A stretch of DNA of 64,000 nt from Turicibacter bilis (GTDB lineage Bacteria; Bacillota_I; Bacilli_A; MOL361; Turicibacteraceae), in assembly GCF_024499055.1 (NCBI RefSeq), contig NZ_CP071249.1, positions 1,341,001 to 1,405,000 on the forward strand. Direction: 5' to 3'. Both the position numbers and the translations under genes were made by a program. This document shows, piece by piece, positions 7,002 to 61,390 of this stretch. Numbering within the stretch: position 1 is the first letter of the stretch; every line of letters starts with the position of its first letter. The notes beneath the pieces are model-generated. The model saw only the letters and a program-made list of their open reading frames with translations. It was not told the origin of the DNA and searched no databases.

Positions 7002-7010
7002 TCACTTGAA

Positions 7011-7047
7011 TCACCTGCCATGCGCAGCATGTCTCCTCCACTGGTAG
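7011..7047 (+). repeat. Single hairpin-repeat module (relic)
   Basis: Carries the layout of the modules at 46.2, 48.4 and 52.4 kb: TCACCTGCCA, inner hairpin ATGC-GCA-GCAT, unpaired TCTCCTCC, closing TGGTAG. It is a lone module without the flanking fixed ends and is fused to the broken end of the ISL3 relic. Confidence 0.75.
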
Positions 7048-7085
7048 AAATGAAATCTCGTATTCACATGATTCAAAACCAAAAG

Positions 7086-37884: not shown

Positions 37885-38283
37885 TATATGTGCAAGTACT
37901 CATATAAGACGGTTCTAATGTAGGTGATTGCCTCATTAGTTGAAGAGAGCTTCACTTGTTCGTGAAGGACGAGAACTCCCCCTGCCAGCTGAGGATGGCT
38001 AAGACTCAATCCTAAAGGATTTTCATACTTAGCGCAGGGAACCCTTTCCCTATCAGTGGAGGATAGCTAAGACTCAAATCTAATGGATTTTCGTACTTAG
38101 CGTAGGGGTCCCCTCATTAGTTGAAGATCTACCTCACTAATTGTGGATTTAAAGTCTCCGACTTTAGTGAGGGCTCCCCTTCACTTATTGGTGAAGGATG
38201 AGGACTCCCTCTGCCATCTGAGGATGGCTAAGACTCAAATCTAATGAATTTCGTACTTAGCGTAGGAGTCCCCCTCCTATCTG
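37885..38283 (-). repeat. Array of hairpin-repeat modules (reverse orientation)
   Basis: About 400 bp made of six or so consecutive modules. The clearest read, on the minus strand, CCCTGCGCTAAG...inner hairpin (AATCC-TTTA-GGATT)...CTTAGCCATCCTCAG-CTGGCAGGG, repeated with different inner arms at about 37978-38040, 38045-38105 and 38210-38272. Smaller hairpins (CCTTCAC/GTGAAGG, CCTCACTAA/TTAGTGAGG) lie between. Same family as the modules at 46-52 kb but with a longer inner arm. No coding capacity. Confidence 0.85.
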
Positions 38284-46183: not shown

Positions 46184-46508
46184 ATTCTATATATAAACAG
46201 AAATAAAATCTACATTTATCACGACACACTAAATGTTTGATCGTTGTGCCGTGGGTCACCTGGCGATTATCAAAGATAATCTAATCCTCCGCTGCTAGGG
46301 AATGGGTCACCTACCATTTTCGAAGAAAATGTATCTACCACTAGTAGGGAATGGGGCCCACAGCAGTGAGCATGGCGAACAATCCTCCTTTGCTGGGGTA
46401 GGGTCACCTACCATGCGAAGCATGTATCCTCCACTGGTAGGGAGTTCAAGGCAGACTATAGTCCAGCTAAAAGTTTTTTACGATGTAAAACACTTATCTG
46501 GACTTACC
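46184..46508 (+). repeat. Modular hairpin repeat element with four modules
   Basis: Left end TCTATATATAAACAGAAATA, right end ACTTATCTGGACTTA. A GCC...GGC hairpin (GTGCCGTG to CAAGGCAG) is filled with four modules: about 46255-46303, 46304-46351, 46352-46399 and 46400-46443. Each has GGTCACC/GGCCCAC at the left, an inner hairpin with different sequence but kept pairing (GATTATC-AAA-GATAATC; CATTTTC-GAA-GAAAATG; ATGC-GAA-GCAT), an ATCCTCC-type spacer, and TAGGG at the right. AGTCCAG (~46463) pairs with CTGGACT (~46498) to close the right half. Not coding. Confidence 0.88.
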
Positions 46509-46563
46509 ATCCGATTCAGATATGGGAGTGTTTTTCTGAAATTACACACAAATTTACTATGAA

Positions 46564-46596
46564 AATTGCGACTGCTTTTGCAGTTGCTTTTTTTTA
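46564..46596 (+). terminator. Terminator hairpin
   Basis: GCGACTGC-TTTT-GCAGTTGCTTTTTTTT, on the plus strand, after the repeat element. Confidence 0.8.
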
Positions 46597-46935
46597 TTGT
46601 CGTATCAATAGTTATAAGTATTTTTAAAGATAAGCAACATTAAAAAATGTTACTATTTTTACATATTAAATTTAGTCGGTCATAAAATGATGACCACTCT
46701 ATTTTGTCTAACAAAAAGTCTTGTAAAAATATAAACAAAATAAGAAAAAGTAGGCTTAACCTATTGGTTTTACCTACTTTAAGGGAGTTGCAAAAACTTA
46801 TGTAATTTTTAATGTAAAACTTCATGTAAAAAGACTAAAACTCTCCCTAAACTGAAACCGATGTGGACTTACATAGGAGCTTTTTTTTTATGTCTTCTGA
46901 TTATCTTTAAATCAAAATCGTCTCTATTATTTGAA

Positions 46936-48231
46936 TTAACCAATCGTGACCTGTTCTTCAGGATAATTAAATCGTGGAGCCATTTTTTGATAAGACCATA
47001 TACAAGCAATACTAAGTGGTCCTACTCGTCCAATAAACATAGTAATCCCTAAAATTAATTTACTGAAATCACCTAGTTCAGAAGTAATTCCTAATGATAA
47101 TCCAATAGTAGCTGTCGCTGAAACAACCTCAAATAAAACTTCGGTAAAAGTAAAATCAGACTCTAAAAATAGAATAACTAAAGTACTAACAATATTAATA
47201 CTGATAGCCAAACAAAAAATACTAAATGCCTTAATGATACTATCCGTTGGAATTCGCCGCTTAAAGGCTGTTACCGGGGTATTAGTAGCAATCCCTTTAA
47301 TACTTTGAATTATCGTAAAAAAGGTTGTTGTTTTTATTCCACCTCCCGTTGACCCGGGTGAAGTTCCTATAAACATTAAGATCATTAGAATTAATAAGCT
47401 AGCAGATGAAAAATTACTAATAGGTAGCATTGTAATTCCTGCTGTACAAGCTGAAATACTGTAAAACAATGCATCTGATAAACTAAAATGTTCTGTTACC
47501 ATTAAAAGAAGAGTTCCAATTCCAATTAATAAACTAGTCATTATCATAATAACTTTTGTATCTAAACTAAATTTTCTAAATTGACGTTTGGAATAAATCT
47601 CAATCATTGGAACAAAACCAAATCCACCTATTAAACTCAGTCCAATAGTTGTCACATATAGTAATACATTCTCGCGATAAACTAATAAACTATGTGATCC
47701 ATCTAAAATATCTAGACCTGAATTATTAAAAGTAGCAACTGAATGAAACGCACTAATCCCTAATGCTGACCAAAAAGGATAATCTTTAGAAAACACAATA
47801 AAACTTAAAACCATTCCAATTAATTCGACGATTAAGGTAAATTTCAAAACATATTTAATTAACCTAACACTCCCACTTAGTGAATTCAAATTTAGCCCTT
47901 CCATCAATAATAACCGCTGATATAAACCAAATTTCCGCTGAGCAATCAAGATAAAAATTGCTCCTATCGAAGTTACACCTAATCCACCAATTTGAATTAA
48001 AACAGCAATAATAATACGTCCAAATAAATTAAAGTATTCAGAGATATCTACTGCGACTAACCCAGTGACACAGACGGCACTAATAGATGTAAATAAGGCA
48101 TCAATATAAGTAACCTCTTTTCCATCCATATGGGTAATCGGCAAAGATAAGATAAGTGCTCCTATCAAAATAACTGATAGAAAGAGAATTACTACATACT
48201 GTACCGGCCTTAATTTATTTAGATAAAACAT
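46936..48231 (-). CDS. ktrB: TrkH/KtrB-type cation transporter, divergent copy
   Basis: 431-residue membrane subunit of a Trk/Ktr K+ (or Na+) uptake system, four MPM repeats. Pore-loop Gly residues are kept in VCVTGL, FNNSGLDI, CTAGITML and ATIGLSLG, but the loops differ from the canonical copy at 48929 (NAGFDI, RTAGFSTV). PGSTGGGIKTTTF is identical in both. The two are clearly paralogues by tandem duplication. No KtrA/TrkA gene is in the window; it must pair with one elsewhere. RBS AGGGAG. Confidence 0.88.
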   Translation of the reverse strand: MFYLNKLRPVQYVVILFLSVILIGALILSLPITHMDGKEVTYIDALFTSISAVCVTGLVAVDISEYFNLFGRIIIAVLIQIGGLGVTSIGAIFILIAQRKFGLYQRLLLMEGLNLNSLSGSVRLIKYVLKFTLIVELIGMVLSFIVFSKDYPFWSALGISAFHSVATFNNSGLDILDGSHSLLVYRENVLLYVTTIGLSLIGGFGFVPMIEIYSKRQFRKFSLDTKVIMIMTSLLIGIGTLLLMVTEHFSLSDALFYSISACTAGITMLPISNFSSASLLILMILMFIGTSPGSTGGGIKTTTFFTIIQSIKGIATNTPVTAFKRRIPTDSIIKAFSIFCLAISINIVSTLVILFLESDFTFTEVLFEVVSATATIGLSLGITSELGDFSKLILGITMFIGRVGPLSIACIWSYQKMAPRFNYPEEQVTIG

Positions 48232-48279
48232 ACTTTTTCTCCCTATTAAACCTTTTTACTTTAAATTTTTAAGCTGATT

Positions 48280-48507
48280 CTATATATAAACAGATAAGTA
48301 TTCTACATCTAAGGTGGCAAACAAAAATACTGATATCCTTTAATTTATAAAGACACCCTATAGTCCAGGGGTCACCTGGCGATTATCAAAGATAATCTAA
48401 TCCTCCACTGCTAGGGAATGGGTCACCTACCATGCGAAGCATGTTTCCTCCATTAGTAGGGCTTAAAAGTTTTCCGATATGAAAAACTTATCTGGACTTA
48501 TATATAT
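48280..48507 (+). repeat. Modular hairpin repeat element with two modules
   Basis: Left end TATATATAAACAGATAAGT and right end ACTTATCTGGACTTATATATA are imperfect inverted repeats (about 19 bp). AGTCCAG at 48363 pairs with CTGGACT near 48492. Two modules lie between (inner arms GATTATC-AAA-GATAATC and ATGC-GAA-GCAT), then a TTAAAAGTTTT...GAAAAACTT hairpin. Confidence 0.88.
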
Positions 48508-48850
48508 AAACAGATAAGCATTCTACATCTAAAGTAGCAAATAAAAAATACTGATCTCTTTTACCTATCAAAACAGCCTATAGTCCGGGGGTTCCCTAGG
48601 CTAAGTGGCACAACCGAAAGGTTGTGATCCTAGCTATCCTCAATTGCTAGGGTATGGGTCCCCTGCCTTGCGAAGCAAGTATCTTCCACTGGTAGGGTAT
48701 GGATCCCCTGCCTTGCGAAGCAAGTATCTTCCACTGGTAGGGTATGGTCCCCTAGGCTAAGTGGCACACTCGAAGAGTGTGATCTTAGCTGTCTACCGTT
48801 GCTAGGGTTATAAAAAAATTCTTTGAAGAAAATTTATCTGGACTTATATA
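48497..48850 (+). repeat. Modular hairpin repeat element with four modules
   Basis: It abuts and shares the TATATATA end of the previous element. Four modules: arms CACAACC-GAAA-GGTTGTG within GGCTAAG...CTTAGC-type stems, two TTGC-GAA-GCAA modules that are near-identical 51-bp direct repeats (48652-48702 and 48703-48747), and CACACTC-GAA-GAGTGTG. The right end is TTTATCTGGACTTATATA. Lies in the gap between the two TrkH genes. Confidence 0.88.
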
Positions 48851-48928
48851 TTCATAAACTTCCTCCCAATTATTTTATAAAAAACAACCTATTGAACTAA
48901 AAGCTTCATAAGATGTTTTGTTTTTTAT

Positions 48929-50224
48929 CTAACCAATCGTAATCTGTTCTTCTGGATAATTAAATTTTGGAGCTGCTTTTTGATAAGCCCAAACGCATGC
49001 AATACTTAGAGGTCCAAGTCGACCAATAAACATTGTCACACATAAAATTAATTTACTAATGACACTTAAATCTGGGGTAATCCCAGTTGAAAGACCAACT
49101 GTTCCCGCTGCTGAAACAACCTCAACAAACACCTCAATAAAAGTTAAGTTAGGTTCGACAATAAGAATTAAAAGCGTACTTGTTGTAATGACCATAATCG
49201 CTAAAGTAAAAATACTAAAAGCTTTAATAATACTATCTGCGGGAATACGACGTTTGAAAGCTGTCACTGGTGTATTCGTTGCAATCCCTTTAATACTTTG
49301 AATAATAGTAAAAAACGTTGTCGTTTTAATCCCTCCACCGGTTGATCCTGGCGATGCCCCAATAAACATTAAAACAGATAAAACGAGTAATCCAGCATGT
49401 GTAAAGCTACCAATTGGAACGGTAGAAAAACCTGCAGTACGAGCTGAAACACTGTGGAAGAAGGCGTCCATCCAACTAAATCCTTCCGTCATTTTCAATA
49501 AAAGTGTTCCAACAATTAATAATGTCACAGTCATGATTACAACAATCTTTGTATTCATACTTAGCTTTTTAAAGTTTCGTTTTGTATAAATCTCTATTGT
49601 TGTGACAAATCCAAATCCGGCAATAATAATTAACCCCGCCGTTGTTAGATTTAGTAATACACTTTCGCGATAAGGAATTAAGTTTTGTAATCCACCTAAA
49701 ATATCAAATCCCGCATTATTAAAGGCAGCAACTGAATGGAATGCACTAATTCCTAAAGCTGACCAAAATGGATAATCTTGAGAAAAAACGATAAAGCTTA
49801 AAATCATCCCAATCAATTCAACGATTAACGTGAATTTTAAAACATATTTAACTAATCGAACAACCCCACTTAATGAGCTGAAATTCATCCCTTCCATTAA
49901 AAGAAGACGATGATGTAATCCAAATTTTTTCTGCATCATTAAAATAAAAGCTGCGCCAACAGAGGTGACTCCCAATCCACCAATCTGAATTAATAAAGCA
50001 ATAATCGTTCTCCCTAAAACATTAAAATGTTCTGCTGTATCAATGGCAATTAATCCGGTTACACTAACGGCACTAGTCGCTGTAAATAAGGCATCAATAT
50101 AACTGACTTCTGCCCCCTCCATATGCGTGAAAGGTAAAAATAACAGAAATGAACCTATTAGAATCACTAAGAAAAATCCCAAAACAACATATTGTGTTGG
50201 TTGTAACTTATTAAATCGAAGCAC
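48929..50224 (-). CDS. ktrB: TrkH/KtrB-type cation transporter, canonical copy
   Basis: 431 residues, same family and length as the 46936 gene. Pore loops VSVTGL, FNNAGFDI, ARTAGFSTV and AGTVGLSTG are canonical for KtrB/TrkH. GTG start at 50224 after TTAGGGAGGG. The upstream leader has a terminator (50324-50358) and a yybP-ykoY-like aptamer, suggesting cation-dependent attenuation. The downstream paralogue is separated by two repeat elements. Confidence 0.9.
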   Translation of the reverse strand: MLRFNKLQPTQYVVLGFFLVILIGSFLLFLPFTHMEGAEVSYIDALFTATSAVSVTGLIAIDTAEHFNVLGRTIIALLIQIGGLGVTSVGAAFILMMQKKFGLHHRLLLMEGMNFSSLSGVVRLVKYVLKFTLIVELIGMILSFIVFSQDYPFWSALGISAFHSVAAFNNAGFDILGGLQNLIPYRESVLLNLTTAGLIIIAGFGFVTTIEIYTKRNFKKLSMNTKIVVIMTVTLLIVGTLLLKMTEGFSWMDAFFHSVSARTAGFSTVPIGSFTHAGLLVLSVLMFIGASPGSTGGGIKTTTFFTIIQSIKGIATNTPVTAFKRRIPADSIIKAFSIFTLAIMVITTSTLLILIVEPNLTFIEVFVEVVSAAGTVGLSTGITPDLSVISKLILCVTMFIGRLGPLSIACVWAYQKAAPKFNYPEEQITIG

Positions 50225-50316
50225 ACTTAACCCTCCCTAATAATTTACTTATGATTATCTTTTGATAAATTGCTAATAGCTCTATGCTGAAAAAGATAAC
50301 TCCTCCTTTCTGATAA

Positions 50317-50358
50317 TAAAAAAGACTTATTAAAAGACTAACTGCCTTTTAATAAGTC
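50317..50358 (-). terminator. Attenuator terminator in trkH/ktrB leader
   Basis: Minus strand GACTTATTAAAAG / CTTTTAATAAGTC, a perfect 13-bp stem, then T6. Its 5' arm begins inside the 3' strand of the aptamer P1 helix (GACTTATT), so the two structures are mutually exclusive. Confidence 0.85.
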
Positions 50359-50440
50359 TCGTCGCTATGATTTGACCAGAATCAAAATGATTCGAGTATG
50401 TTGATCAAATCCCACCTATCGTGTTAACTACTCCCTTATT
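50351..50440 (-). promoter_or_regulatory. yybP-ykoY-like riboswitch upstream of trkH/ktrB
   Basis: Minus strand AATAAGGGAGTAGTTAACACG opens the element and GCGACGAGACTTATT closes it; AATAAG/CTTATT is P1. A long arm (GATTTGA...TCAAATC, then GAATC/GATTC) holds the internal loop TCAACATACTC, matching the family's conserved CAACAUAC. The 5' and 3' blocks are shared with the leader at 18063-18282. Binding of ligand would stabilise P1 and prevent the overlapping terminator, as in Mn2+-activated family members. Association with a Trk gene would be unusual. Confidence 0.62.
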
Positions 50441-50507
50441 TATAGAATAACATAACATGAATTAGGTCATTTGTTAAGCTTATTTATCTATTTATATACA
50501 TTATTTT

Positions 50508-50807
50508 CTATAATCCCATTAAAGTTTTTGCCTGTTGTAAAACTTTTGCTCCATCCATCATCCCATAAGCACGCATATCAATCGAATCAACAGGGCATTT
50601 CGCTAAACTTTTAACACGTGATAATTCAAATCGTACTTGTGGGCCTAATAAAATAACATCAGCTTCAGATCCATGTTTTTGAGCTTCTGAAACAGAGTAA
50701 GCATTAATATCGCATTCAAACCCTTCTTTTGTTGCAACTTCACGCATTTTATTAACTAATAAACTAGTAGACATTCCAGCGGCACATAATAAAACGATTT
50801 TTTTCAT
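50508..50807 (-). CDS. PTS cellobiose/lactose-type IIB component
   Basis: 99 residues. KIVLLCAAGMSTSLLVNKM carries the phosphocysteine, followed by ADVILLGPQVRFELSRVK. Transfers phosphate from IIA to a beta-glucoside during uptake. It stands alone; IIA and IIC are not nearby, and the 6-phospho-beta-glucosidase is 9 kb away. Start ATG at 50807 after GGGGG; the frame is open 18 codons further without support. Confidence 0.9.
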   Translation of the reverse strand: MKKIVLLCAAGMSTSLLVNKMREVATKEGFECDINAYSVSEAQKHGSEADVILLGPQVRFELSRVKSLAKCPVDSIDMRAYGMMDGAKVLQQAKTLMGL

Positions 50808-50942
50808 CTTTAAAACCCCCTTTCTCCAAAATAAACAACGGTTACATTTATATTCTAACACACTTCAATGAAAGCGAAACACTTTTAATCTAACTCTTAA
50901 AAGGAGTTCGAAATTTAAAAAGGTAAGGGACCGTGTAGTGAA

Positions 50943-51249
50943 ATGAAAGGATTGTTTGTAATACTTGGAATTGGGGCTTTACTTTTTTATATTACCGTAT
51001 TTACTTTAATGTTGATTCGAATCGATACCTTATGTTTGATAATCATTGCTTTATTAGTTATTTACGCATATCTATAGCTTAGTTGTAGGCTTCTTAGCTT
51101 CTAAATGGAACTGGGGTCTACCACTGTTCATTGAATTATTATTTATCCTTAGCATCTTTTTTCTATATAACGAAACAGCTTGTGGATACTCTTATAAATA
51201 TACGATCATTCCATATGTTGGAGTTATCTTAGCCTATATCAAAAAATAG
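50943..51249 (+). pseudogene. Frameshifted paralogue of the small membrane protein at 54666
   Basis: The first 44 codons read MKGLFVILGIGALLFYI..., like MKKLLVLLGIGILLFYI of the 105-residue gene at 54666. At about 51060-51080 one extra base shifts the frame: TACGCATATCTATAGCTTAG aligns with TATCCACTTTATAGCTTAG. The rest continues in another frame (VVGFLASKWNWGLPL..., ending AYIKK) with clear similarity to the intact copy. A dead duplicate of the third gene of the sigma/anti-sigma operon. Confidence 0.85.
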
Positions 51250-51323
51250 TGGAAATTATTTCATAACACTTTCCCTTTTTAATTAAGAAATAGTACTCGA
51301 TTCGATTCCTAGTCAAAGTAAAA

Positions 51324-51360
51324 AACAAAAAAAGCGTTGAATGACTCAACGCTTTTTTGG
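51324..51360. terminator. Terminator hairpin
   Basis: AAAAAGCGTTGA-ATGAC-TCAACGCTTTTTT, strong stem with A and T tracts on both sides; serves the minus-strand surface-protein remnant and/or the plus strand. Confidence 0.85.
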
Positions 51361-51368
51361 TATTCTTT

Positions 51369-51440
51369 ATTTCTTTTTACGTAAAAGTGTTCCTAACATT
51401 AACGAAAGGCTACCTAAACCTAACTATGCAGTTGCAATTT
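51369..51440 (-). pseudogene. Decayed cell-wall sorting signal
   Basis: The minus strand reads IATA-stop-LGLGSLSLMLGTLLRKKK-stop: a hydrophobic helix with basic tail, as at the C-terminus of LPXTG-anchored proteins, with an in-frame stop where a sense codon would be expected. No LPXTG is left. Probably the former 3' end of the surface-protein gene whose Ig-like fragment lies at 51489. Confidence 0.6.
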
Positions 51441-51488
51441 AAATACTTGTCGGTGATTATTTGATTGATTTGGTTTTATTTATAGTAT

Positions 51489-51899
51489 CTAATTAACAAC
51501 AACATAACATGCAACAGTCTTCTCACCGACTGTCACTAAAACAACAGCTACTCCCTGATTAACTGCTGTGACTATTCCGTTTTTATCCACTTCAAGAATG
51601 TCTTCACTAGTAGACATGAAAAGTACTTGGTCATATGCCACATTGTCTGAATCGATTGTTACTTCTAATTTACATATCTCTCCAGAATTTAACTCTAGTT
51701 CTTCATAATTCAATGTTAGCATTTCAATATTGACTGATTTTACTGAAACTTGATCATTGACCTTCCTATCCTTTGTTATAGTTGTAGGATTCATTTGGAT
51801 AAAGTTATTCTTACTCTCATTTAGGTTGTTTAGTTCAGTTTTAGTTTCTAACTTTGTTGTTCCCCCGACTATATTACTTGTAACTGAATTGTGTCTCAA
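51489..51899 (-). CDS. Bacterial Ig-like (Big_2) domain protein, probably a gene fragment
   Basis: 136 residues. The C-terminal half (~60-136) is a Big_2-like fold: LNYEELELNSGEICKLEVTI...STSEDILEVDKNGIVTAVNQGVAVVLVTVG. The N-terminal half is Asn/Thr-rich linker. It has no signal peptide and stops at the end of the domain. The decayed sorting signal follows 50-120 nt downstream. Most likely the remaining middle part of a larger wall-anchored protein. Confidence 0.6.
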   Translation of the reverse strand: MRHNSVTSNIVGGTTKLETKTELNNLNESKNNFIQMNPTTITKDRKVNDQVSVKSVNIEMLTLNYEELELNSGEICKLEVTIDSDNVAYDQVLFMSTSEDILEVDKNGIVTAVNQGVAVVLVTVGEKTVACYVVVN

Positions 51900-52030
51900 T
51901 TTGCTCTCTCCCTATCATTAGCCTTATTCTTAATCATTTTTATGTCTAAATTATAATCAAACAAATCTCTATCATCATAAAATTCTAATCTGATTAATTT
52001 CCTAATCTTGAACATGAGTCAGACAATAGA

Positions 52031-52130
52031 AAAAACTCTTATCACTAACGCTCAAAAGTAATTAGCATAAGAGTCGGTTGTGCTACTAACTCCATATATT
52101 CAAAGGACCTACATACAGAAATACTTCTTC
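52031..52130 (-). promoter_or_regulatory. Terminator-coupled leader element, copy 1
   Basis: Minus strand 52130 to 52071: GAAGTATTTCTGTATGTAGG...GAATATATGGAGTTAGTAG...CAACCGACTC, then a terminator (CTCTTATGCTAA...GATAAGAG, T6; 52031-52075). It matches copy 2 at 52161-52257 over about 60 nt, including the hairpin GAGTT/GACTC with a loop starting AGTAG. No known riboswitch class could be assigned. Confidence 0.6.
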
Positions 52131-52160
52131 GTTTCTAAATTTTTTTCTTAAGTAAGAAAA

Positions 52161-52257
52161 AAACTCTAAAAAAGATTATCTACCATAATCTTTTTTAGAG
52201 CCGGTTGCACTACTAACTCCGTATATTCCAAAGTGCCCACATACAGAATATACTTCC
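52161..52257 (-). promoter_or_regulatory. Terminator-coupled leader element, copy 2
   Basis: Minus strand GAAGTATATTCTGTATGTGGGC...GAATATACGGAGTTAGTAGTG...CAACCGGCTC, then a terminator (CTCTAAAAAAGATTAT...ATAATCTTTTTTAGAG, T7). GTATATTC/GAATATAC is an 8-bp helix; GAGTT pairs with GGCTC here and with GACTC in copy 1, a compensatory-type change. Terminator sequences of the two copies are unrelated while the leader part is conserved. Confidence 0.6.
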
Positions 52258-52337
52258 TCATTTCTCATCTTTCATCAAAATTTTATCATAAAGTAATTAA
52301 AAATACAATTATTTCCACAAATTGTTTATAAAAAAAT

Positions 52338-52663
52338 CGATATGGAAACAGAAATGTATTTCATCATTCTATAGTAGGCTTAGTTGGCAATTCTTTTTAA
52401 TACTAAGACAAACTATCGTCCAGGGGTCACCTACCATGCGAAGCATATTTCCTCAATTAGTAGGGAATGGGTCACCTAGCAGTTTTACTTGTAAAACAAT
52501 CGACCATTGGTAAGGAATGGGGCCCACAGCAGTGAGCATAGCGAACAATCCTCCTTTGCTGGGGTATGGTCTCCTAGCGATTATCAAAGATAATCTAATC
52601 CTCCATTAGTAGGGCTTTAAAAGTTTTTACGATATGAAAAACTTATCTGGACTTATATACTTC
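52338..52663 (+). repeat. Modular hairpin repeat element with four modules
   Basis: Left end GATATGGAAACAGAAATG, right end ACTTATCTGGACTTATATA. CGTCCAG (~52411) pairs with CTGGACT. Four modules lie between; the inner arms ATGC-GAA-GCAT, GTTTTAC-TTGT-AAAAC and GATTATC-AAA-GATAATC keep pairing. The third module (AATGGGGCCCACAGCAGTGAGC...) is almost identical to one in the 46.2-kb element. Confidence 0.87.
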
Positions 52664-54665: not shown

Positions 54666-54983
54666 ATGAAAAAGCTATTAGTTTTACTTGGAATTGGAAT
54701 TTTATTATTTTACATTAGTCCTGTTTTTTTCAAAATGATTGGAATAGAGACGTTAGGATTAATGGTGATTGCCTTATTAGTTCTTTATCCACTTTATAGC
54801 TTAGTTGCCGGATTTATAGTACCTAAATGGAGATTAGTTTTTCCCTTATGTATTGGGCTATTATTTATTCCTGCCATCTATCTTTTCTATAATGAATCTG
54901 CATGGGTATATCCTATTCGATATACAATGATTGCCTATCTTGGAGCAGGCCTTTCATATATCAATCGAGTAGGAGATAATTAA
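54666..54983 (+). CDS. Small membrane protein, third gene of the sigma operon
   Basis: 105 residues, three to four hydrophobic helices, MKKLLVLLGIGILLFYISPVF at the start. RBS AAGGAG. 16 nt after the anti-sigma gene, so co-transcribed; possibly part of the signalling complex or a regulated product. A frameshifted paralogue lies at 50943. The stop codon abuts the 3' end of the group II intron on the other strand. Confidence 0.75.
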   Translation: MKKLLVLLGIGILLFYISPVFFKMIGIETLGLMVIALLVLYPLYSLVAGFIVPKWRLVFPLCIGLLFIPAIYLFYNESAWVYPIRYTMIAYLGAGLSYINRVGDN

Positions 54984-55003
54984 TTAATTTAATCATCGTC
55001 CTC

Positions 55004-55042
55004 TCACACCACCGTACGTACGGTTCCGTATACGGCGGTTCT
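55004..55042 (-). ncRNA. Group II intron domain V region
   Basis: Stem-loop GAACCGCCGTATACGG...CCGTACGTACGGTGGT, the catalytic-domain hairpin of bacterial group II introns, close to the intron 3' end as required. Confidence 0.8.
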
Positions 55043-55051
55043 ATTTTATCT

Positions 55052-56329
55052 CTAAATATGAACAGTTTGATAGTGGTCTAGTAGTGATACTAGACCTCTT
55101 CTTTTTAGTCTTTCATTCGTGATGGTTCGACATAAAATAAATGAGCGAGCGACTCTCGCATATCCTTTTCGGGTATTTGCCCATTCCCACGCCTTATCCT
55201 TATCGATTCCCAACCTCATTAAACTTCTATATTTGGTTTGAACCTTCTTCCATTGTTTCCATATACACATTCTTAATCGGAATCGAATATTTTTATCTAG
55301 ATTTCCACATACCGTCCTCATCTTAGCGATTTTAAAATAATTCACCCATCCGATGATTAACTGCTTTAGTTTCTTCAGTCGATAGTCAAAACTCACACTC
55401 CAACTTCGTCGGGTGAGTCTTTTTAATTTCTCTTTCACTCTCATGATCGATATCTGGTGAGGTTTAGCTTTGAACTGATAGGCATTTTTATCCCAAAAGA
55501 AACCGAATCCTAGAAATTTAATTCCACTTGGTCGCTCAACCTTACTTTTTGTCACATTGACTTTAAGACCTAGCGTTTCTTCAAGGTATTTCGTCATGCT
55601 TTTCATCACTCGCTTCGCTGCCTTCTCACTTTTCACTAGAATTAAACAATCATCTGCGTATCGGACAAAATTTAACCCTCTTGCTTCTAGCTCTTGGTCA
55701 AGTTCATTTAACATGATATTGCTCAGTAATGGGGATAGATTGCCTCCTTGTGGGGTTCCAATCACCGATTCTTTATATTCATCATCCATCATGACTCCAC
55801 TGACTAAGAATTTTCGGATGAGTGAAATGACATCTCCGTCCTTAATCGTATTTGATATCAACCTCATTAACTTATCATGGTTGACTTTATCAAAGAACTT
55901 TTCTAAATCGATATCAACAATCCATGTATACCCATCATTCATGAATTCTAGACTTTTAATAATCGCCATTTCTGCACATCGTCCCGGTCTAAATCCATAG
56001 CTGTTTTCATGAAACTTTTCTTCATAGATAGGGGTGAGAACTTGAGCCATCGCTTGTTGAATGAATCGGTCAACCACGGTTGGGACACCTAAATTTCGCA
56101 CACCCCCATCTGCCTTGGGAATCTCGATTCGTTTCACCGGTTTAGGTTGATACGAACGCGTACGAATTTGGTCCTTTATCTCTTCACCATTTTCTTTTAA
56201 ATAGTGTCCCAATTCATTAATCGTCATCCCATCCACTCCTGCCGCACCTTTATTACGCTTAACTTGTAAATAAGCTTGGTTTAGATTATTTGGGTGTAGG
56301 ATTTGTTTTAATAAATTCTCTGTGTTCAT
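55052..56329 (-). CDS. ltrA: Group II intron reverse transcriptase/maturase
   Basis: 425 residues. RT domain with GVDGMTINEL, RIEIPKADGGVRNLGVPTVVDR, YGFRPGR, catalytic NFVRYADDCLIL and KFLGFGF; then the maturase (X) domain (~300-425). No HNH endonuclease domain, as in IIC-type and other En-minus proteins that depend on structured or replicating DNA targets. Splices its own intron and reverse-transcribes it at new sites. Start ATG at 56329 after GGAGGT. Intact. Confidence 0.92.
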   Translation of the reverse strand: MNTENLLKQILHPNNLNQAYLQVKRNKGAAGVDGMTINELGHYLKENGEEIKDQIRTRSYQPKPVKRIEIPKADGGVRNLGVPTVVDRFIQQAMAQVLTPIYEEKFHENSYGFRPGRCAEMAIIKSLEFMNDGYTWIVDIDLEKFFDKVNHDKLMRLISNTIKDGDVISLIRKFLVSGVMMDDEYKESVIGTPQGGNLSPLLSNIMLNELDQELEARGLNFVRYADDCLILVKSEKAAKRVMKSMTKYLEETLGLKVNVTKSKVERPSGIKFLGFGFFWDKNAYQFKAKPHQISIMRVKEKLKRLTRRSWSVSFDYRLKKLKQLIIGWVNYFKIAKMRTVCGNLDKNIRFRLRMCIWKQWKKVQTKYRSLMRLGIDKDKAWEWANTRKGYARVARSFILCRTITNERLKRRGLVSLLDHYQTVHI

Positions 56330-56845
56330 ATTTGTTACCTCCATGAGTTTCGTAACCTTCCATCCATCGTATCTATTTTTTTTTTAGATATGTGTCTTAT
56401 CACCTAATGGTTAATTAGGAAGGTGCAAGTATCATTTCTTTAACGGATAAAATAGTTCGGTCCTTCGCTCCTTTTAGTTTTCACTAACTCTCTTCACTAC
56501 TACGACCTCGGCTGACTTCTTATATTCCATGTTTACCTCACGGTCAACCTTTGGGATAGAATATAAGACCTCCCCGGGTAAGGTGTATTATCTTCCCTTC
56601 CATCTATCTGCCACATTTACAACATACATTTTTTTTCTGTGTAGCTATTGGACTTTAACTTGTTATGCAGTCTTATCCTTGTATCCTGCCTGATGTGATT
56701 CCTGTTCGTCAGACCAGAAGTTTGCCCACGGACTTCCTTCAGATTCCTCCTCGCAGAGGACACCCTTGTCTTAGGCTATGTACTTTCCGCTACTTGGTCG
56801 TACTCGGGACTTTAACCCGTTAGATAATACCCATGCCGGGCGCAC

Positions 56846-56890
56846 AAAAAAAAAGAGGAAGCGTTCAGTCATAACGCTTCCTCTTTTTCG
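56846..56890 (-). terminator. Terminator used as group II intron insertion site
   Basis: Minus strand AAAGAGGAAGCGTT-ATGACTG-AACGCTTCCTC, then T9, then the intron's GTGCG. It terminates the 56927-61219 gene. Confidence 0.92.
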
Positions 56891-61219: not shown

Positions 61220-61255
61220 CCTGTTCGCAGTCTGTCTGCTTCTCCCCCTTCTTTA

Positions 61256-61390
61256 TATATAAGTCCAGATAAGTTTTTTACATCGTAAAAACTTTTAGCT
61301 GGACTATAGTCTGCCTTGCACGGCATAACCATCTCATATTTCGGTTGCTGTATTAAATGTAGAAAACATTTCTGTTTGTATATAGAAACT
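61256..61390 (-). repeat. Modular hairpin repeat element, empty (no modules)
   Basis: On the minus strand: left end TTTCTATATACAAACAGAAATG, then GCCGTGCAAGGCAGACTATAGTCCAG, a hairpin CTAAAAGTTTTTACGATG/AAAAAACTTAT, and right end CTGGACTTATATA. The GCC-GTGCAA-GGC hairpin corresponds exactly to the place filled by four modules in the 46.2-kb copy. It ends 37 bp upstream of the activase gene start, so it is probably in its 5' untranslated region. Confidence 0.85.

Follow-up and report, generated by a model that had tools for sequence, protein, structure and literature searches.

Hairpin repeats with fixed ends recur along a 64,000-nucleotide stretch of the Turicibacter bilis chromosome (the window), and their arms remain paired while the letters change. 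The locus raises the question of whether this pairing reflects a function of the RNA for the host or the spread of the repeats themselves. A sequence-only reading of the window had described the repeats as BOX-like composites and had taken the pairing as a sign of selection on RNA or cruciform structure. The explanation that we favor, with a probability of roughly 0.7, is that two non-autonomous mobile elements are nested here: a MITE with IS630-type ends and an independently mobile hairpin module.

The outer element and its relation to IS630

Five elements in the window have a common 5' end, CTATATANAAACAGA, and a common 3' end, CTTATCTGGACTTATATA, with mismatches allowed. Copy 1 (46187-46509, plus strand) contains four modules, scored where possible with a covariance model of the module, R1: one with GATTATC-AAA-GATAATC arms (46253-46303, plus; 59.1 bits), one with ATTTTC-GAA-GAAAAT arms (46304-46352, plus; 64.2 bits), a variant beginning GGGGCCCACAGC that was found by scanning and falls below the R1 threshold (46353-46400, plus), and one with ATGC-GAA-GCAT arms (46401-46445, plus; 60.8 bits). 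Its 3' end is decayed, with TTACCA replacing TTATATA. Copy 2 (48280-48505, plus) has two modules (48369-48419 and 48420-48464) and is fused head to tail via a common TATATA to copy 3 (48500-48851, plus), which has two long and two short modules (48589-48655, 48656-48700, 48701-48745 and 48746-48810). Copy 4 (52338-52660, plus) has four (52424-52468, 52469-52518, 52519-52566 and 52567-52617), the third being the same variant as in copy 1. Copy 5 (61255-61386, minus strand) has no modules and represents the bare core of about 132 nt, the right end of which is the hairpin CTATAGTCCAG-CTAAAAGTTTTTACGATGTAAAAAACTTAT-CTGGACTTATATA. A transposase gene was sought inside the window MITEs and none was found; the core is short.

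The ends described by the sequence-only reading were thus found on these five elements but not on the two other loci to which it had assigned them, an array at 37885-38283 that runs on the minus strand and is built of long modules, two of them at 37980-38111, and a lone module at 7008-7051 (plus; R1 36.3 bits) in what remains of the 3' part of an ISL3-family transposon. Likewise, its range of zero to four modules per element describes the window, where the number is 0, 2 or 4, but not other parts of the genomes, where arrays reach at least eight modules.

Several other features of the window were noted. Two paralogous Trk/Ktr-type potassium transporters of 431 aa each, named from their translations, are encoded side by side at 46936-50224; one MITE lies downstream of one gene and two MITEs lie between the genes, and the same gene pair is present without MITEs in the sister species G004. 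A c-di-GMP-II riboswitch (52190-52274, minus) adjoins copy 4, and an apparent degenerate second copy lies just downstream on the minus strand (about 52060-52125), before a gene for a small protein (51489-51899, minus). A group II intron occupies 54964-56853, and three more near-identical 1.9-kb copies of it exist in the genome.

The ends identify the outer element as an IS630-related MITE, as each of them matches an end of an IS630-family transposon resident in the genome. Two full transposons of this family were reached in the window's genome (G000, 2.79 Mb) through a search for left ends without right ends, and their transposases were identified by matches to DDE_3 and NF033545. Over 28 positions, 47 distinct bare cores agree with the IS630 ends at 23.5 positions on the 5' side and 22.0 on the 3' side, compared with 10.9 for shuffles, and the core/IS630 alignments inspected pair left end with left and right with right. 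The 3' end occurs in 67 copies in G000 with no more than three mismatches, while a reversed-pattern control gave zero. Given the agreement between MITE and transposon ends, the roughly 132-nt MITE is most likely moved by the transposase of the resident IS630-family element. Besides the two copies of the transposon in G000 there are several in G004; a search for the IS630 transposase in G001-G003 gave no match, although MITEs are present there.

The hairpin at the MITE 3' end covaries, with the foot variants GTCCAG/CTGGAC, GTCCCG/CGGGAC, GTAGCG/CGCTAC and GTGGCG/CGCCAC. The folding energy of the bare core (61255-61386) has a z score of -3.07, and that of its 3' hairpin -4.28. At three orthologous places in G004, the elements at 46187, 48280/48500 and 61255 are missing while their flanks are conserved, and the array at 37885-38283 is missing at the orthologous places in both G004 and G002. 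A search for clean MITE empty sites that might reveal a TA duplication returned only tandem-copy artefacts; the MITE ends are AT-rich. In G000, only 20 of 56 MITEs are co-oriented with the leading strand (p 0.04). Two IS110-family transposase genes in G004 (L292 at 1811611, the other at 2188898) are each separated from a MITE by about 260 bp and have the same orientation relative to it, as though the MITE were a target or a passenger of IS110.

Pairing and distribution of the inner module

The module is 44-67 nt long and consists of an outer stem (CCTAxC/GxTAGG), a variable inner hairpin and a 3' bulge with TCCTCC. The earlier observation that the inner arms vary while their pairing is kept was borne out and persists when 107 distinct modules are aligned. 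Standard pairs fill 93.9% of 1026 cells, compared with 74% in shuffles, and 191 cells are changed on both sides, compared with 59±6 in shuffles and 3-34 in slid controls; the alignment was fitted to the R1 model, which favors pairing somewhat, and the margin is large. The TCCTCC-like bulge and the GGTCACC/TAGGG ends are conserved, also as previously noted. The case for structure comes from the covariation rather than from folding energy, since individual modules are little more stable than shuffled sequences (z +1.0 to -2.0). A C(GNA)G cap, which is very stable in DNA, closes 47 of 93 loops. A count of strand asymmetry gave 60 G-T and 41 A-C cells, with a single pair making up most of each class, and the pairs contradict one another.

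Two outcomes that would have refuted the sequence-only reading, a lack of further copies in the genome and a loss of covariation among many aligned copies, did not occur: the search with R1 found many others, in this genome and in relatives. There are 138 modules in G000 (E≤0.01); four congeneric genomes contain 27, 14, 12 and 45, and G005, from a second genus of the family, contains 16, while two more members of the family have none. Among 288 genomes of the same class but of other families, no module reached E≤1e-5. Modules are present in 6 of the 8 genomes in the order and in none of the 288 others. The repeat had been called unfamiliar, and an Rfam search with the elements gave no family match even at E≤1. 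Our literature search for this repeat, including Turicibacter repeats, found no description. Phage and plasmid records contained no match to the whole element pair and a scan of viral contigs for the module pattern found none, so a phage or plasmid origin was dropped.

Modules and MITE ends are decoupled in number, with 27 modules and 4 MITE ends in G001, 14 and 36 in G002, and 16 and 1 in G005. Away from MITE ends lie 46 of 76 module clusters (60%). The sequence-only reading had missed the IS630-type ends of the MITE as well as the independent mobility of the modules, most of which lie outside MITEs.

Module insertions and competing explanations

Module mobility can be read from copies of the same gene with and without an insert. 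One transposon in G001 is present in six intact and six module-interrupted copies. L159 and L164 (G001) are 99.3-99.7% identical to L242-L263 around the site and have 44 nt inserted. In G004, L235 and L269 are 97% identical, and exactly 45 nt are inserted between CCATT and TTAAATC. At module insertions with near-identical empty sites, a target-site duplication was sought and none was found; at several insertions, one base is changed or lost at the 3' junction. The interrupted genes encode transposases of IS3, ISL3, IS66 and IS30, a radC-like and a Fic-like protein and, in another genus, an Rpn-like nuclease, where the family names come from reading translations rather than from profile searches. 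The site of the lone window module at 7008-7051 is identically occupied in aligned copies from three species (L178, L215 and L235).

The sites have preferred neighbors. In the flanks of 72 non-MITE clusters, T precedes the insert in 55, A is at position -2 in 40 and G follows in 43, a preference that is overstated to some extent, since an undetected module precedes some of the clusters. These letters, AAT before and G after, are the same as those at the junction of tandem modules. Inside MITEs, modules point in the MITE direction 30:1 and occupy two positions, as would be expected from a few insertions that were then copied with the MITE.

The following series of events would account for these observations. 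The module would insert as one unit, without target-site duplication and often after AAT and before G. The GGGAAT at the module end and the GGG of the next module would recreate the insertion context, and tandem arrays could thus grow by insertion or slippage. A module landing within a MITE would be carried along by it. A putative enzyme would move the module, and the frequent C(GNA)G caps suggest that it may act on single-stranded DNA. When a gene family recurring beside large module arrays was sought as the mover, only ordinary neighbors were found. The IS110 family was rejected for this role: it occurs in all five genomes of the genus, with only a sub-threshold match in module-bearing G005, and there is no mechanistic link.

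A more specific version of this enzyme is possible, if rather doubtful: a resident HUH (Y1) transposase could move the modules in trans as REP-like single-stranded DNA elements. The missing target-site duplication, the hairpin form, the preferred flanking letters and the C(GNA)G caps would fit, as would the distribution of Y1 transposases, which five of the six genomes with modules have and the two genomes without modules lack. REP/BIME repeats mobilized by TnpA_REP (RAYT) are likewise short palindromic hairpins of high copy number that form arrays without target-site duplication. However, G002 has 14 modules and no Y1 match, and the Y1 genes found are ordinary IS200-type copies with ends unlike modules, only one of which (L192) has modules nearby. 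REP/BIME hairpins also have an invariant GTAG (or CGTC) tag at the foot, whereas in the 107 distinct modules the pair within the would-be GTAG varies, with 54 C-G and 44 G-C. Modules keep one orientation per array, unlike BIMEs, and no RAYT gene is flanked by them. Because the tag and a flanking RAYT gene are missing, the modules are not REP. A leading or lagging bias is also absent among the free modules (22 of 46).

It appears unlikely that the hairpins are transcribed and benefit the host as RNA, whether as regulators, as sites of processing or as arrays that bind proteins. The strong covariation and the conserved unpaired TCCTCC segment are what such a role would leave, and the agreement of module and MITE orientation in 30 of 31 cases also speaks for it. 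Yet the modules are confined to one family, the window elements are missing at the same loci of a sister species, and the modules interrupt transposase, radC-like and Fic-like genes; the lack of replication-strand bias and of any Rfam match counts against it as well. A host RNA role for the modules is not supported. The earlier reading was right that the pairing is conserved, but selection on host RNA need not follow from it: a hairpin required for mobility, or arm repair templated by the hairpin, gives the same pattern. Under the nested-element explanation, the pairing would be kept for mobility.

It is similarly improbable that the modules do not move themselves and have spread by slippage, recombination and gene conversion, with arms kept paired by hairpin-templated repair. 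Tandem identical modules at L022, L203 and L209 and the occurrence of the same variants in different elements, for instance at 46353 and 52519, are readily explained in this way. In contrast, the clean insertions into unrelated genes, with no homology seen around the site, need a transposition-like step.

The least probable alternative is that genic modules are bypassed in the RNA or during translation, as in mitochondrial byp, and are in effect harmless introns: exact removal of the module restores the reading frame in most cases and genic insertions are mostly sense (about 15 events to 4, counted manually), but antisense insertions exist, the open reading frame runs straight through several modules (for example in frames of 443-451 aa in G004), and the intact copies of the same IS in G001 mean that helpers in trans suffice and skipping need not be assumed. 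Translational bypass was dropped once these intact copies were found.

The ISL3 transposase genes L234, L235 and L183 (G004) each contain, close to the C-terminal end, a 45-nt module that keeps the frame and has no stop codon; the insert adds 15 residues in multi-copy elements and recalls the Rickettsia palindromic elements. A single IS3 copy (L163, G000 2347785-2348784) has been entered by modules at four separate sites, and the reading frame stays open through two of the four.

Known systems and significance

Rickettsia palindromic elements and mitochondrial byp elements are small hairpin repeats in protein genes, sometimes in frame. The genic modules resemble them in this respect, some being in frame, and differ in that most of them interrupt transposase genes that also exist as intact copies, and in showing no sign of skipping. 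Correia elements of Neisseria are MITEs. Like the RUP of pneumococcus, which is tied to IS630-Spn1 (PMC3049150, where Rickettsia palindromic elements are also mentioned), the outer element here is a short, gene-free MITE whose ends match an IS630-family transposon; unlike RUP, a simple repeat, it carries expandable hairpin modules of independent origin.

The closest architecture is that of BOX in Streptococcus pneumoniae and S. suis, a composite A-(B)n-C with IS-like terminal inverted repeats and variable tandem inner modules (PMC3049150). BOX has lone modules and a parasitic distribution, its ends resemble ISSpn2, and S. suis has two kinds of ends that enclose the same inner modules (PMC3049150). 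The A-(B)n-C layout with expandable modules between fixed ends, which the sequence-only reading had recognized correctly, is found here together with IS-like ends, lone modules and size variation. By these shared properties, the Turicibacter repeats are a new case working like BOX, the likeness being one of architecture. They differ from BOX in taxon, in having IS630-type rather than ISSpn2-like ends, and in that most module clusters are free, with empty sites in transposase genes.

To our knowledge, BOX-like composites have been known for decades without the origin of their inner modules and the cause of the change in module number being settled. The module described here also occurs apart from the composite, and near-identical gene copies in one genome provide its empty sites, which makes its mobility directly testable. 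The findings also caution that members of a repeat family can show strong base-pair covariation without serving the host as RNA. Tentatively, the modules may form a class of their own among minimal mobile DNAs: hairpins of 45 nt that a putative enzyme would move at a short AAT/G-like core, and that build arrays by targeting their own ends and colonize MITEs and transposase genes. If this is true, the inner boxB of BOX may share that kind of origin.
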